The translations under genes were made by a program, and so were the position numbers. From a virus, in IMG/VR virus record IMGVR_UViG_3300043392_000054, positions 62,001 through 126,000 of that record: a stretch of DNA of 64,000 nt; one strand, given 5' to 3'. Below are positions 7,444-50,161 of this stretch, piece after piece (the stretch's first letter is position 1; each line of letters begins with the position of its first letter). The notes beneath the pieces were generated by a model that searched no databases, was not told where the DNA came from, and saw only the letters and a program-made list of their open reading frames with translations.

Positions 7444-8394
7444 ATGGTTAACGCACTATTTACAGAAAAGTATCGTCCTAAAAATTTAGATGAATTAATT
7501 TTACCAGAAAGGGTAATGAATAAGTTTAAAAATGGTTTAACGCAAAATGTATTGTTTGCAGGTTCACCTGGAACAGGCAAAACATCAACTGCTAAAGCTA
7601 TTATTAATCAATTTGAATTACCATATTTGTATATCAATGCATCGCGAGACACTTCAGTGGATGTTATTAGAACTCAAATCACAGATTTTTGCTCTACCAT
7701 GTCAATCCTAGATGACCGTGATAAATTTAAAGTAGTTATACTAGATGAGGTCGATGGTGTGTCAGACCAGTTCTTTAAAGCTCTGAGAGCAACGATGGAA
7801 CAATTTGCTTCAAACTCTAGATTTATTGCTACCTGTAATTACATTAATAAGTTACCAGATGCTATTCTTTCTCGTTTTGAAGTCATTAATTTTGATTTTG
7901 ATAAGTCAGAAGAAACAGAATTGACCAAAAAATATATTAAGCGCGTATATGATATTTGTGGTAAAGAAGGCATGACTATCGAAAAGCCAGCTTTAGTTGA
8001 ATTTGTAAAAAGAAACTTTCCAGACTTACGTTCTACTTTAAGCAAATTACAGGGTTATAAATCGCAAGGCACCGTTAATATTGGAATTGATGATGTAAAA
8101 CGTTTCAATTCGGTCTATAAAGATGTCTTTGACCTAATTTTTAATGAAACAGACCCTGTTAAAAACTATAAACTTTTAGTTAGTGAATATTCAAATAGAG
8201 TCGATGATGTATTAGAAATGTTAGGGAGCGATTTCATTGAATATATTCAAGCTGAGAAACCAAATAATATTAAAAATATACCCCAAATTATAATTACAGT
8301 AGCAGAGCACCAAGCACAGAGAATTCACGTAATTGACCCAATCATTACAATGTTATCTTGCGTTTATCGTATACAAGAAATAGTTAGGTCTTAA
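7444..8394 (+). CDS. 44: Sliding clamp loader large subunit, T4 gp44-like
   Basis: 316 aa (T4 gp44 is 319). An AAA+ ATPase of the replication-factor-C type that loads the sliding clamp at primer ends. Walker A is GSPGTGKT (residues 40-47), Walker B VVILDEVDG (about 97-105) and the sensor/arginine-finger SRF motif is at 143-145. The C-terminal helical collar domain is present. Its partner is probably the small protein at 9844. It starts a replication block after the divergent promoter region 7380-7443. Confidence 0.93.
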   Translation: MVNALFTEKYRPKNLDELILPERVMNKFKNGLTQNVLFAGSPGTGKTSTAKAIINQFELPYLYINASRDTSVDVIRTQITDFCSTMSILDDRDKFKVVILDEVDGVSDQFFKALRATMEQFASNSRFIATCNYINKLPDAILSRFEVINFDFDKSEETELTKKYIKRVYDICGKEGMTIEKPALVEFVKRNFPDLRSTLSKLQGYKSQGTVNIGIDDVKRFNSVYKDVFDLIFNETDPVKNYKLLVSEYSNRVDDVLEMLGSDFIEYIQAEKPNNIKNIPQIIITVAEHQAQRIHVIDPIITMLSCVYRIQEIVRS

Positions 8395-8421
8395 AAAAAA
8401 TAATAGTAAATATATTTTTAC

Positions 8422-8446
8422 TTGTCATAAAAATTAGTTATATTTG
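8422..8446 (+). promoter_or_regulatory. Middle-type promoter (TTGTC-N12-TATATTTG)
   Basis: TTGTC at 8422-8426, 12 nt, then TATATTTG at 8439-8446. It is the first of 15 copies of this arrangement in the window and lies 14 nt before the exonuclease start. Confidence 0.75.
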
Positions 8447-8459
8447 TATAACAGATAAC

Positions 8460-9680
8460 ATGGAAGAAGATATGAAATTAGGAAAACATACATTACTTAT
8501 AGATGGAAATTATTTTATCTATAGCAGATTATTCGTAATGCCAAAACCCAATAAGGGTAAATTATTAGGAGATGAAAAAAGCAAAGGACAATTTCTTCGT
8601 AAATTGTGCATTGACTTTGCATCTGAAATTAGAAAAATGCAACCATTTTTAGATAAGATTGTTTTAACGATTGACTCTAAATCTTGGCGCAAAGACCTTT
8701 TTCCAGAAGCTGAATATAAAGGTACAAGAACTCAAGATGATACAGTTGAATGGGAATCAGTTTATCAGATTTATGAAGAATTTAAAACGGTATTAGCTAA
8801 AAGAGGTGTTATTGTACAACAGGTAAATGGCGCAGAAGCAGACGACTTGTTATTTGCTTGGTCTACTTATTTAAATGCTGCAGGCCAAAACTGCATTGTA
8901 TGGACTGGAGACCGTGACTTGATTCAATTAGTAGATTATTCAAAGGCAACTGATGGCTATACTTTATGGTATTATAACACTAAGAAAAGACTAATTGTAT
9001 TTGAAGGTTTTAATAAAATGATGGGTATGCCTATTGACGAATCTTCTGACAATGATGACTTATTATTTAATCTTGCAAGTAAAACAGCTCTTTTAGAAAA
9101 AGTAAGAGCTGATGTAAATGATTGGATTAAAAAGAATGGCATTGAAATTGAAGAAATCAATTGCGATAACTTTATTTTTCAAAAGATTTTAACAGGCGAT
9201 AAATCAGATAATATTAAATCAGTAGTTACTTGGTCAAAGGGTGGTAGAACCTACAATATTAGTCTTAAACAAGCTGATAAAATCTTAGAACAGTATTTAA
9301 AAGAAGAATCTGTCTTTACAATCGACCACATGTTTAATGAGTCTCAAGTTGACAAAATAGCAGATATAATTTATAGAGTTGTCGGTAATTCTACTAAATC
9401 TCAAATTAAAGCCAGATTTAATCAAAACCTAGATATAATGTTATTACACTATAACACTATTCCAGAAGCGATTCAATCTCAAATGCAAAAAGCTATTGAT
9501 ATTAGCATTGAAATTGAACCAGAATTAAATAGATTAACGCAATTAGAAAAGATTCTTGAGGGAAATCCATGGTTACAAGTTAAATCTGATGTACCTAGTC
9601 AATTTGACCCATTTGAAGGTCTAGAAGATAGTAATAGTTCAACACCATTAACAAAAAAATTAGATGGAGGCTTATTCTAA
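8460..9680 (+). CDS. rnh: 5'-3' exonuclease, T4 RNase H-like (FEN family)
   Basis: 406 aa (T4 RNase H is 305). It removes RNA primers and flaps from lagging strands. Metal-binding acidic motifs of the family are visible: LLIDGNYF near the N-terminus, GAEADDLLFAW in the middle, TGDRDLIQLV after it and LTGDKSDNIKSVV ahead of the helix-hairpin-helix region. An extra segment of about 60 residues between GDRD and GDKSDN explains part of the extra length. Start at 8460 follows the promoter closely; ATG at 8472 (MKLGKH) is an alternative. Confidence 0.9.
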   Translation: MEEDMKLGKHTLLIDGNYFIYSRLFVMPKPNKGKLLGDEKSKGQFLRKLCIDFASEIRKMQPFLDKIVLTIDSKSWRKDLFPEAEYKGTRTQDDTVEWESVYQIYEEFKTVLAKRGVIVQQVNGAEADDLLFAWSTYLNAAGQNCIVWTGDRDLIQLVDYSKATDGYTLWYYNTKKRLIVFEGFNKMMGMPIDESSDNDDLLFNLASKTALLEKVRADVNDWIKKNGIEIEEINCDNFIFQKILTGDKSDNIKSVVTWSKGGRTYNISLKQADKILEQYLKEESVFTIDHMFNESQVDKIADIIYRVVGNSTKSQIKARFNQNLDIMLLHYNTIPEAIQSQMQKAIDISIEIEPELNRLTQLEKILEGNPWLQVKSDVPSQFDPFEGLEDSNSSTPLTKKLDGGLF

Positions 9681-46117: not shown

Positions 46118-46635
46118 AATCAATAGAAATTAGTGATGAAATGTATGATAAGCTCATTACACTTGCAACGGAAATGACAACGCAAGACCCAAGAGCTACG
46201 AGAATGCCATATCTTTTTCAAATCAGAGATTGGAAACGTGTTTATGATTGGGATTTAAATGGAAATACAACATGTTGGGTAGATACCAATGGTGATTTTT
46301 GTGTTGTAGAAACTTTAGAAGATTTAAAAGATTATTTAGAAAGATATGGCATTATTCCACCTGAAAATCTAGAAGAATTATGGGAAGATAGTTATAATAT
46401 GCAAGATTGGATTGAAGAGAACTGTGAAGATTTACAAGAATGTTCATATTCAATGGAACCAGTTTATATAAATTCATTCTTAACAGCGAAGGCAGCGCAA
46501 GCACATTTAGATTTAAATGATTATCATTATCATAAAGACGCTGATGTCTATTTGAATCATGCTTGGAGAAATCCAGAAGCAGAATTAGTTTCAGAATTTT
46601 TATGTAGTTTAGTTAATAAAAAAATGCACACTTAA
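46114..46635 (+). CDS. Unknown acidic protein
   Basis: 173 aa, acidic, with WDLNGNTTCWVDTNGDFCVVETLEDLKDYLERYG and a C-terminal segment FLTAKAAQAHLDLNDYHY followed by HAWRNPEAELVSEFL. I recall similar uncharacterised proteins in phages and bacteria. Encoded in the NAD-related transcript. Function unknown. Confidence 0.6.
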   Translation: MKSIEISDEMYDKLITLATEMTTQDPRATRMPYLFQIRDWKRVYDWDLNGNTTCWVDTNGDFCVVETLEDLKDYLERYGIIPPENLEELWEDSYNMQDWIEENCEDLQECSYSMEPVYINSFLTAKAAQAHLDLNDYHYHKDADVYLNHAWRNPEAELVSEFLCSLVNKKMHT

Positions 46636-46649
46636 AAAAATAAAAAAAG

Positions 46650-46925
46650 ATGGCAATAGGACCAGAACAATTACGTGAAAATTTCATGAAAGAAGTTAAT
46701 GAGTTTGAAGAAATAATAGATTCAAAATTGTTAAAATCTAAATTACAAGGTAAAATCATGATTGATGCTCCAAATGGAATGACAGCATCGCACTTTATAA
46801 TTTTAAAGGACAGATATTTAAAGGCAGGTTGGGATGTGGTTAAACAAGAATTTGGAAACCAGAGAGACCCATGTAATTTAATTGTATTTGGACTAAACTT
46901 TTTCGAGGAAAATGGCACACGCTAA
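46650..46925 (+). CDS. Unknown small protein
   Basis: 91 aa, helical start (EQLRENFMKEVNEFEEIIDSKLLKSKL) followed by an alpha/beta segment (MTASHFIILKDRYLKAGWDVVKQ). It overlaps the next gene by 14 nt. No family recognised. Confidence 0.6.
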   Translation: MAIGPEQLRENFMKEVNEFEEIIDSKLLKSKLQGKIMIDAPNGMTASHFIILKDRYLKAGWDVVKQEFGNQRDPCNLIVFGLNFFEENGTR

Positions 46926-47100
46926 ACTTCACATGATTTGTGGCAACTGTGGTCAAAATGACATGTTTGACTATCACATTTCTACGGAAATCGATGATGA
47001 CACTGATGAGGAATATCAAGTAGTTTATATCGGTTGCAATAACTGTAATACCCTACACGTCTTAGATGATAACGCAGAATTAATTAAAGAAAATAATTAG
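46912..47100 (+). CDS. Small zinc-ribbon protein
   Basis: 62 aa with two CxxC knuckles (CGNCGQND and CNNCNTLH) separated by an acidic strand region, a rubredoxin-like zinc ribbon. Last gene of the transcript before the NAMPT promoter. Confidence 0.65.
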   Translation: MAHAKLHMICGNCGQNDMFDYHISTEIDDDTDEEYQVVYIGCNNCNTLHVLDDNAELIKENN

Positions 47101-47114
47101 TCAAATATTTTTTT

Positions 47115-47139
47115 ATTTCAAGAATTATAGTTATATTTG
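47115..47139 (+). promoter_or_regulatory. Middle-type promoter of the original NAMPT gene
   Basis: ATTTC 47115-47119, 12 nt, TATATTTG 47132-47139. It now stands ahead of a 22-codon remnant of the NAMPT start (47161) and the inserted homing endonuclease. Confidence 0.72.
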
Positions 47140-47160
47140 CTTATCATAAAAACATAAGAT

Positions 47161-47226
47161 ATGAATCCTTTATTTTTAACAGATGGTTACATTATCAGAA
47201 GGATACAAAACCTAACAATAAATTAG
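47161..47226 (+). pseudogene. Orphaned 5' end of the NAMPT gene
   Basis: The frame starts MNPLFLTDGY, identical over these 10 residues to residues 6-15 of the NAMPT-like protein at 47990, then diverges and stops at TAG 47224-47226 after 22 codons. The shared codons differ at synonymous positions (CCT/CCA, TTA/CTT, GAT/GAC, TAC/TAT). It marks the original start of the gene, cut off by the insertion. Confidence 0.85.
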
Positions 47227-47234
47227 ATATATAA
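47226..47234 (+). promoter_or_regulatory. Late-type promoter motif of the homing endonuclease
   Basis: GATATATAA 25 nt before the endonuclease start; the only late-type motif in this accessory region apart from the non-coding RNA locus. T4 homing endonucleases also often carry late promoters. Confidence 0.55.
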
Positions 47235-47250
47235 ATAAAAACAAATCTTT

Positions 47251-47988
47251 ATGAATTTTTATATTTATAAAATTACTAATTTGATTAATGATAAGATTTA
47301 TATTGGTAAAAGAAAAACTAATAAACTTATCGCAGAAGACGATTATTTTGGTTCTGGCGTGTTAATATTGAAAGCCATTGAAAAATATAAATTAGAGAAT
47401 TTTAAAAAGGAAATATTAGAAGAATGCACTGAAGAATCAATTAATGATAGAGAAATTTATTGGATTAATGTTTATAATTCAAATGACTTAAATGCTGGTT
47501 ATAACATATCTAGCGGCGGTGATGGTGGAGATTTAATATCTAATCATCCAAACCGAGAGGAAATTAGAGAAAGAATAAACAATTCTCTTAAAAATAGAGA
47601 ATTTACAGAAGAGCATAGAAAAAAATTATCAGAATCTAAACAAGGTGGTAAAAATCCAATGTATGGTACAAATCTTACTGAAGAAGAAAAAATACATTTA
47701 AGCACTTTGATAAAAGGTAGAAAAATGTCAAATCAATTTAAAGAAAATGTTTCTAAAGGTAAAAAAGGAGTTAAATTCACAGAAGAACATAAAGCTAATC
47801 TATCTAAGAATCATGCAGATTTTAAAGGTTATAAGCACTCTGAACAAAGTAAAGCAAATATGAGTGCAGCCAAAAAAGGAGCTATTTTAAATAAACCACA
47901 TGAATGTAAAAATTGTGGAAGATTTATATCAAGTATTCATAATTTAAACAAACACTATAATAAATGTATAACTATTAAAAATAAATAA
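47251..47988 (+). CDS. GIY-YIG homing endonuclease
   Basis: 245 aa. The N-terminal catalytic domain has YIYKITNLINDKIYIGK (the GIY-YIG module, 4-20) and the later DREIYWINVYNS containing the metal-binding Glu. The middle has repeated NUMOD3-like DNA-binding motifs (EFTEEHRKKLSESKQGGKNPMYG; FTEEHKANLSKNH; HSEQSKANMSAAKKG). A C-terminal zinc finger (CKNCG...HNLNKHYNKC) completes the DNA-binding part. It is inserted at codon 10 of the NAMPT gene and carries a recoded copy of that gene's start at its 3' flank. Not inside a recognisable intron. Confidence 0.93.
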   Translation: MNFYIYKITNLINDKIYIGKRKTNKLIAEDDYFGSGVLILKAIEKYKLENFKKEILEECTEESINDREIYWINVYNSNDLNAGYNISSGGDGGDLISNHPNREEIRERINNSLKNREFTEEHRKKLSESKQGGKNPMYGTNLTEEEKIHLSTLIKGRKMSNQFKENVSKGKKGVKFTEEHKANLSKNHADFKGYKHSEQSKANMSAAKKGAILNKPHECKNCGRFISSIHNLNKHYNKCITIKNK

Positions 47989-47989
47989 A

Positions 47990-49516
47990 ATGAGTACAAT
48001 ATCAATGAATCCATTATTTCTTACAGACGGTTATAAATGTGGACATAGAGAACAATATCCTAAAGGAACCACTTTAGTTTATTCAAACTTCACACCTCGC
48101 AGTAACAAGTATGCTCCGAAAGGATGTGAACAGGTAGTTTCATTTGGACAGCAAATGGTTGTACAACAAATTCACGAAGCATTTCAAAATGAATTCTTTA
48201 GTAAACCAAAAGATGAAGTTTGTGGTGAAATGAAACGCGAGTTATCATTGTACTTAGGTACTGATTATGATGTATCACATTTTGAAGCTCTACACGACCT
48301 AGGTTACTTACCTATCAATGTTAAAGCAATTGAAGAGGGAACATTAGTACCAATCAAAGTACCGGTATTAACAATTTACAATACACATCCTGATTTCTAT
48401 TGGGTAACAAATTACTTAGAGACAATTATCTCTAATTTGTTATGGAAGCCAATGACGTCAGCTACAATCGCTCACACATACAGAAAAATATTGACTAAAT
48501 GGCAAGAAAAAACAGATGCTGAACGCGGATGGTTTATTGATTGGCAAGGACATGACTTCTCAATGCGTGGTATGGATTCAGTTGACGCTGTTATTAGCTC
48601 AGGATTAGGTCACTTAACATCATTTAGTGGAACTGATTCATTACCTACATTGTATGGTGCTAGAAAATACTATGGAGAAACTGGATTTGTAGGTGGTAGT
48701 GTTAATGCAACTGAGCATAGTGTAATGTGCGCTGGTGGTTCTGACGATGAGGTAGGTACATTCAGACGTTTAATTGAAACATATCCAACCGGTATTTTAT
48801 CAATTGTATCAGATACATGGGACTTATGGAAAGTTTGCACTGAGCACGTAGCTACTCTTAAAGAAGAGATTTTAGCACGTGATGGTAAATTGGTTATTCG
48901 TCCTGATTCAGGCGACCCTGTAGATATTCTATGTGGAGAACCAATTATATCTCGTGATTATAGAGATGTTGTTGAAAACGCACAATTAGATTTAACACAT
49001 CCGAAATATAAAGGAGTTATCGAATTACTTTGGGATGTATTTGGTGGAACAATCAACGAACAAGGTTACAAAGTATTAGATTCTCATATTGGAGCCATTT
49101 ATGGTGACTCAATTACAATCGACAGGGCCGATGAAATTTGTAAGCGATTAGAAGCAAAAGGTTTCGCATCTACAAACGTTGTATTAGGTATTGGTTCATT
49201 CACATATCAATTTAATACTCGTGACACATTTGGTTTCGCAATGAAAGCAACCTATGTTGAGGTAAATAAACCTAAATTTAATGGTGATTTTAATCCTGAA
49301 GGTAGAGAAATCTTCAAAGACCCAATCACAGATGATGGAACTAAAAAATCAGCAACTGGGTTATTATTTGTCGGGAGAAATGATAATCTGGACATTGCTT
49401 TATATGATAGAGTAGATTGGTTATCTGAAAGTATGGGATTACTTCAACCCATTTACAAAGATGGTGAATTCTATAACGAAACAACATTAACTCAAATTCG
49501 TGAACGCTTAAAGTAA
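47990..49516 (+). CDS. nadV: Nicotinamide phosphoribosyltransferase-like (NAMPT/NadV or Namat)
   Basis: 508 aa. The start MNPLFLTDGYKCGHREQYP, the central SFSGTDSLPTLYGARKYYGE with NATEHSVM (catalytic His), SIVSDTWDLWKV and VIRPDSGDPVDIL are hallmark NAMPT segments. The enzyme joins nicotinamide to a pyrophosphorylated ribose. With the Prs-like gene at 44952 it fits either NAD salvage or the NARP1 pathway. ATG 47990 adds MSTIS; ATG 48005 matches the ancestral start preserved in the orphan copy. Expression now depends on transcripts through the inserted endonuclease. Confidence 0.93.
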   Translation: MSTISMNPLFLTDGYKCGHREQYPKGTTLVYSNFTPRSNKYAPKGCEQVVSFGQQMVVQQIHEAFQNEFFSKPKDEVCGEMKRELSLYLGTDYDVSHFEALHDLGYLPINVKAIEEGTLVPIKVPVLTIYNTHPDFYWVTNYLETIISNLLWKPMTSATIAHTYRKILTKWQEKTDAERGWFIDWQGHDFSMRGMDSVDAVISSGLGHLTSFSGTDSLPTLYGARKYYGETGFVGGSVNATEHSVMCAGGSDDEVGTFRRLIETYPTGILSIVSDTWDLWKVCTEHVATLKEEILARDGKLVIRPDSGDPVDILCGEPIISRDYRDVVENAQLDLTHPKYKGVIELLWDVFGGTINEQGYKVLDSHIGAIYGDSITIDRADEICKRLEAKGFASTNVVLGIGSFTYQFNTRDTFGFAMKATYVEVNKPKFNGDFNPEGREIFKDPITDDGTKKSATGLLFVGRNDNLDIALYDRVDWLSESMGLLQPIYKDGEFYNETTLTQIRERLK

Positions 49517-49522
49517 GCATAA

Positions 49523-50161
49523 ATGAAAGTAATATTCCTAGATATAGACGGGGTGATGAATTCCAGGGTCTTTTATGAACAGAGACATCGCCAGAGATGG
49601 AGAAAACCAATCACTTGGTGGTGGGATTTAAAGAGCCTATTTAGAAAAATATTTGGAATCAAATCCAACGGAGTTTCTATGGCAGATTATAAAACGCCTA
49701 GAGACTTTTACACCTTTGATTATCAATTTGAAAGATTGGCAGAGGAAACTTGCCCTCAAAAGTGGAGATGGTTAAGTAGATGGTGTAATGAAACCGGCAC
49801 AAAGATTTGTATCTCATCGGTTTGGAAAAATCATTTTGCTGAGAACGTTTACGTATCAGCTCCTGAACGATGGGAAAAGGCCCTGGTAAGACTTGGCTTC
49901 AAGTCCGGAACCTATGTAGGAATTACAGGTGAGAGAAGAACCTTAAGAGGTGAAGAGATTCAAGAGTGGTTGGATGTGCATCCTGAAGTCGAAGACTATG
50001 CAATCCTAGATGATGATTCAGATATGCTGACAGAACAATTTGCAAAGTTTTATCATTCAGACCCTTGGTTCGGCCTAACGCCGAACCACTTATATAGAAT
50101 TGAAAGACAATTTAGCAAACTAAACAATTACGAACATCTTAATATAACCAGAAAAAAATGA
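49523..50161 (+). CDS. HAD-family phosphatase-like protein (SAK-type HAD)
   Basis: 212 aa. FLDIDGVMN carries the DxD nucleophile pair, CISSVWK the Thr/Ser motif II and ILDDDSDM the acidic motif IV. It resembles the HAD domain of Swiss Army Knife RNA-repair proteins. An insertion of about 60 residues follows motif I. Overlaps the next HAD gene by 4 nt. A 3'-phosphatase role in RNA repair is plausible from the ligases and kinase nearby. Confidence 0.78.
   Translation: MKVIFLDIDGVMNSRVFYEQRHRQRWRKPITWWWDLKSLFRKIFGIKSNGVSMADYKTPRDFYTFDYQFERLAEETCPQKWRWLSRWCNETGTKICISSVWKNHFAENVYVSAPERWEKALVRLGFKSGTYVGITGERRTLRGEEIQEWLDVHPEVEDYAILDDDSDMLTEQFAKFYHSDPWFGLTPNHLYRIERQFSKLNNYEHLNITRKK

Follow-up and report, generated by a model that had tools for sequence, protein, structure and literature searches.

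Replacement of a gene end by an endonuclease ORF is known from fungal mitochondria, where mORF gene hybrids have been described for atp6 of Allomyces and for atp6, atp9, cox2 and nad3 of Glomus (PMC3630166). In these hybrids the endonuclease ORF, which is of the GIY-YIG type in the atp9 case, brings a foreign gene end that takes over from the native one, which persists as a duplicate out of use (PMC3630166). The 'N-terminal duplication' introns of Tremella fuciformis mtDNA likewise combine a mobile element with partial replacement of the host gene and a duplicate fragment (PMC7315562). In phages, the seg genes of T4 and other homing endonuclease genes (HEGs) include free-standing GIY-YIG genes that home without introns and use host-gene promoters, but the T4 seg genes are placed between intact genes; mobE of Aeromonas phage Aeh1 does lie within a metabolic coding sequence, nrdA, although nrdA there continues to function as two separate parts (PMC2988022). 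A word search of the review of T4 elements, which describes split genes, found no mention of duplication or restoration of a gene end (PMC2988022), and a literature search of incomplete coverage found no phage report of HEG-linked gene-end replacement.

The locus lies within a window of 64,000 nucleotides, the whole stretch of DNA analysed, which lies on a single metagenomic contig and spans bases 62001-126000 of a virus record 182,829 bases long (Table 1). Direct reading of the sequence bears out a preliminary description in which the peptide MNPLFLTDGY is coded twice (ATGAATCCTTTATTTTTAACAGATGGTTAC, 47161-47190, and ATGAATCCATTATTTCTTACAGACGGTTAT, 48005-48034), with a GIY-YIG endonuclease between both starts and an intact nadV restored behind it: the HEG is complete and scores above the TIGR01453 cut-off, and the downstream gene encodes a complete protein of 508 aa. 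The first copy does stop early as described, although after 21 codons (MNPLFLTDGYIIRRIQNLTIN) rather than 22, and the two starts differ at 5 of 30 bases, all synonymous, but non-synonymous changes directly beyond the junction had been missed. The HEG is accompanied by a new 5' end, as also proposed, yet the donor's own gene start, acquired via co-conversion, is a better reading than a start made by the element. A duplicate gene end flanking a HEG, with the native copy out of use as in the mORF type, is present as nadV stub and intact gene, and likewise in thyA. The fungal hybrids differ in that the 3' (C-terminal) end is replaced, and in mitochondria, whereas in the phages it is mainly the 5' start and the junction is recoded (PMC3630166). 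The Tremella elements are described as introns, some of them spliced (PMC7315562), whereas no intron was detected here, and in contrast to the split nrdA (PMC2988022) nadV is restored complete. The earlier claim of invasion without an intron is supported, given that a mobile group I intron was rejected on the lack of any Rfam match to E 1 in 46500-49600 and on the completeness of the downstream nadV with its own start. An intein was likewise rejected: the HEG is read from an ATG of its own to its own TAA, nadV begins after it and the frames are separate.

Table 1. Features of the nadV locus, in window coordinates.
Feature	Position	Strand	Evidence
Original nadV leader with probable promoter, at present 5' of the stub	47102..47160	+	aligns with nadV upstream regions of stub-less relatives; TTATATTTNC motif
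Stub: apparently native nadV codons 1-10, then 11 in-frame codons unrelated to NAMPT, TAG (47224-47226)	47161..47226	+	29/31 bases vs L048 nadV start
Second nadV-like remnant, other frame (LSEGYKT)	47191..47211	+	19/21 bases vs L061 nadV
GIY-YIG homing endonuclease gene (HEG), 245 aa	47251..47988	+	TIGR01453 64.7 bits; NUMOD3; PHROG 314
Complete functional-looking nadV (NAMPT)	47990..49516	+	NCBIfam PRK09198 E 4e-161; departs from consensus at 13 of 383 conserved columns
Changed patch, codons 12-16 (T12C, H15R, Q16E), beyond the stub junction; proposed cut-resistant site	48038..48052	+	3/13 consensus departures

The HEG product has an N-terminal GIY-YIG domain, two NUMOD3 motifs and a C-terminal zinc-finger-like tail (CxxC..HxxxC), and matches the homing endonucleases of PHROG 314. 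Its first motif reads YIY instead of GIY, within a sequence that belongs to the GIY-YIG family by score, and the match to the I-TevI domain (1ln0) is weak, with Y6, Y17, E68 and N85 kept as judged by eye. It is the sole gene of this family found in the whole record, and a scan of genome contigs yielded no relatives. The same HEG is present on a different contig, at locus L081, with 68% amino acid identity (dN 0.22, dS 1.9), directly 5' of nadV and behind a decayed nadV-like stub.

The match of the stub to nadV 5' ends was equalled by none of 400 shuffles and so is not due to chance. The DNA just 5' of the stub aligns with the nadV leaders of loci that have no stub (L018-L020, L077 and L032), which places the stub, it appears, where the old gene started; random 100-mers of the window reached the leader alignment score in 4 of 300 draws, and a possible reason is that the TTATATTTNC motif, with 9 copies in the window against 3.45 expected, is a repeated promoter. 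From these alignments the stub appears to be the native 5' end of nadV with its native leader kept. The retention of a promoter region and a start codon would also suit an upstream leader ORF with a role in regulating nadV or the HEG, and another locus, L001, likewise has a short ORF 5' of nadV. This explanation is very unlikely, given that stub lengths and tails vary by case, that the L081 stub has decayed and that 79 of 80 nadV loci have no such ORF. Directly behind the presumed native stub, the second remnant gives a match that 1 of 400 shuffles equalled. It shares homology with the nadV-like sequence that precedes the HEG in L081, and that sequence in turn resembles nadV 5' ends (0 or 1 of 400 shuffles as good). 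The remnant is probably an older stub, left by a previous invasion and carried along with the HEG. Given its alignment with the L081 flank, we infer that the HEG was at nadV starts before the lineages of the window and L081 split and that the window lineage was then invaded again.

The open frame of the functional-looking nadV begins at 47990 (MSTIS), 15 bases before the internal ATG at 48005 that corresponds to the start in relatives. Its departures from the family were counted over columns in which 70% or more of 68 relatives agree, and the three that fall at codons 12, 15 and 16 are only modestly clustered. Identity to the best relative over 10 codons is 0.73 at this patch against a mean of 0.91, with about 5% of 10-codon stretches as low, and the recoded motif YKCGHREQYP was not found elsewhere in IMG/VR. 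In nadV the imported segment cannot clearly be assigned to L081 as its source, and the evidence here is only suggestive of a foreign replacement end beside a native stub.

It is suggested that a free-standing GIY-YIG HEG moved into the nadV start by intron-less homing, reducing the native 5' end to a stub while importing both itself and a cut-resistant 5' end; this account is considered probable. The nuclease would cut nadV alleles that have no insert, in the region of codons 10-17; homologous recombination with the donor nadV would mend the break on the right, and the left side would join upstream of the donor HEG. Ahead of the HEG and then the full gene, the recipient's first codons and promoter would persist as a stub without function. 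Since the donor-derived first codons would differ at the cut site, the nuclease would no longer cut the restored gene, which would be functional at once without splicing and would be transcribed from the old promoter through the HEG. In this order of events the nested second remnant would record an earlier round.

Of 80 other nadV loci found by similarity, 79 carry no stub. The exception is L001, the single duplicated-start case, which has nothing, and no HEG, between stub and gene and so presents, in form, the very finding that had been named as counting against the claim. Codons 1-20 of its functional nadV have their nearest counterpart in the HEG carrier L081, whereas for codons 21-60 it is found in L041, and on this basis L001 is read as the scar of an invasion or as a recombinant without a HEG. 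For the same phage no syntenic site without the insert was found. Two-piece nadV matches in Staphylococcus and Bacillus phages and in a Kolpuevirus were set aside, each gene being annotated as a single CDS. In the Rhodococcus phage Weasels2 (L248:978-1511) an HNH endonuclease ORF lies between prs and nadV and overlaps the nadV start, with no stub visible by eye.

The clearest case comes from thyA. The L317 stub (MNSIDKQYQILLQSILDYGVEKSDR) matches the stub-less, native-type thyA of L326 at 67 of 75 bases, whereas codons 1-25 of the functional L317 gene match L326 at only 40 of 75 and the HEG carrier L274 at 66 of 75; from codons 29-50 the gene is again nearest L326 (88%). Across four HEG carriers, codons 1-18 of thyA are 86% identical, where random quartets give 70% (0 of 5000 as high), with no excess beyond codon 28. 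This mosaic, together with the excess of identity among carriers, indicates that the HEG moves together with a short stretch of the gene's 5' end, which in thyA, by these comparisons, has been imported along with it. At the stub junction DRTGTGT is recoded to ETRNGGT in L274, L291, L317, L335, L338 and L356, all of them beside HEGs of the L274 type, while L147 has a HEG and keeps DRTGTGT. The altered allele is associated with an adjacent HEG (4/11 versus 2/70 in the first set of 81 loci; Fisher p 0.0026, or 0.013 without the near-duplicate L317/L318). These counts ignore shared ancestry, and the model itself predicts that the 5' ends share it. An altered (TRNG) thyA with no adjacent HEG detected is present in L253, L261, L262, L265, L295, L297 and L316, which could be immune alleles that have lost the HEG. 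Given that the window is one metagenomic contig, the nadV junction might be thought an assembly artefact in which two phages were joined. This is the least likely of the explanations considered and is highly improbable, for two reasons: first, the same type of junction occurs in L081, on another contig, and second, the thyA cases are repeated in independent assemblies (L317/L318, L332/L333 and L335-L337).

The DNA 5' and 3' of each GIY-YIG HEG was compared in 140 non-redundant HEG rows (about 139 loci), with the 99% point of a mismatched-pair null as threshold, a null that is conservative because its top pairs share a target gene. Eighteen rows (17 distinct loci) exceeded the threshold against 1.4 expected, L149, L387 and L073 among them being doubtful on inspection. 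Genes with the 5' pattern were found to include thyA (L147, L274/L333, L317/L318 and L338), an unnamed gene marked by the motif PITRIN (L405, L345 and L343, with L119 by motif), the terminase large subunit of L402, an unnamed gene of L379 and, just at threshold, the DNA polymerase of L394. A 3' version was present in L068/L215 (thyA) and L129. The pairing of a HEG with a replacement 5' end thus recurs in other, unrelated phage genes.

The same structures might instead arise by homology-facilitated illegitimate recombination, in which a foreign piece consisting of a neighbour gene and a nadV start is joined by chance on the left and by homology on the right, the HEG being merely carried along. 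Duplicate thyA ends without a HEG do exist, at the 5' end in L267 and L270 and at the 3' end in L249, L273 and L301, where small non-HEG ORFs take the place of the HEG (two in series in L267), and the L001 stub has nothing between it and nadV. In these six loci either the HEGs were later lost or recombination alone can make the same structure. As a general explanation this is unlikely: the pattern is strongly over-represented at HEG loci, the DRTGTGT recoding accompanies the HEG and is absent from L267, L270 and L068, and the prs control gave no stub pattern (0/46 and 0/50 loci). Homing by the HEG itself remains the preferred reading and, extended beyond nadV, it is reasonably likely that start-swapping GIY-YIG HEGs tied to a cut-resistant 5' end of the target are widespread in phages, act on thyA, nadV, terminase, perhaps DNA polymerase and others with neither intron nor intein, and leave nested stubs, one per invasion.

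A selfish nuclease of this kind could hit conserved coding sequence without a splicing device by carrying a self-immune replacement for the gene end. If true, this would explain abrupt allele changes at gene starts and would offer a way for selfish elements to spread without killing the target gene. Nested stubs would then be fossils of successive invasions, short ORFs 5' of phage genes may be relics, and the stub junction and recoded patch are candidate cut sites for uncharacterised phage endonucleases.

Several further loci are of separate interest. In L267 (1926-2517) the two small non-HEG ORFs before thyA each have a thyA-like start (MNNVDKQYIISV and MNNLDKQYQSLLQDI), and the pair represents serial insertions at the gene start. 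L270 (1876-2517) has a 213-codon ORF in which a thyA-like start (MEDLDKKYQSLLQDVLNNGVT) continues into unrelated sequence; this ORF may be a new gene that arose from a stub. L127, with a high score in the first survey, was rejected as it looks like two tandem paralogous genes. L073 was also rejected: the stub is kept, but the kinase-like gene downstream of the HEG (7754-8476), beside HEG and stub, has an in-frame stop in its P-loop (GLP*LGSGKST). Within the window, adjacent ORFs at 38498-41085 share a similar stretch (KYTYSKFWLAEQFDFD and KYNNPKFWVAEQIGFD) and are probably tandem paralogues.
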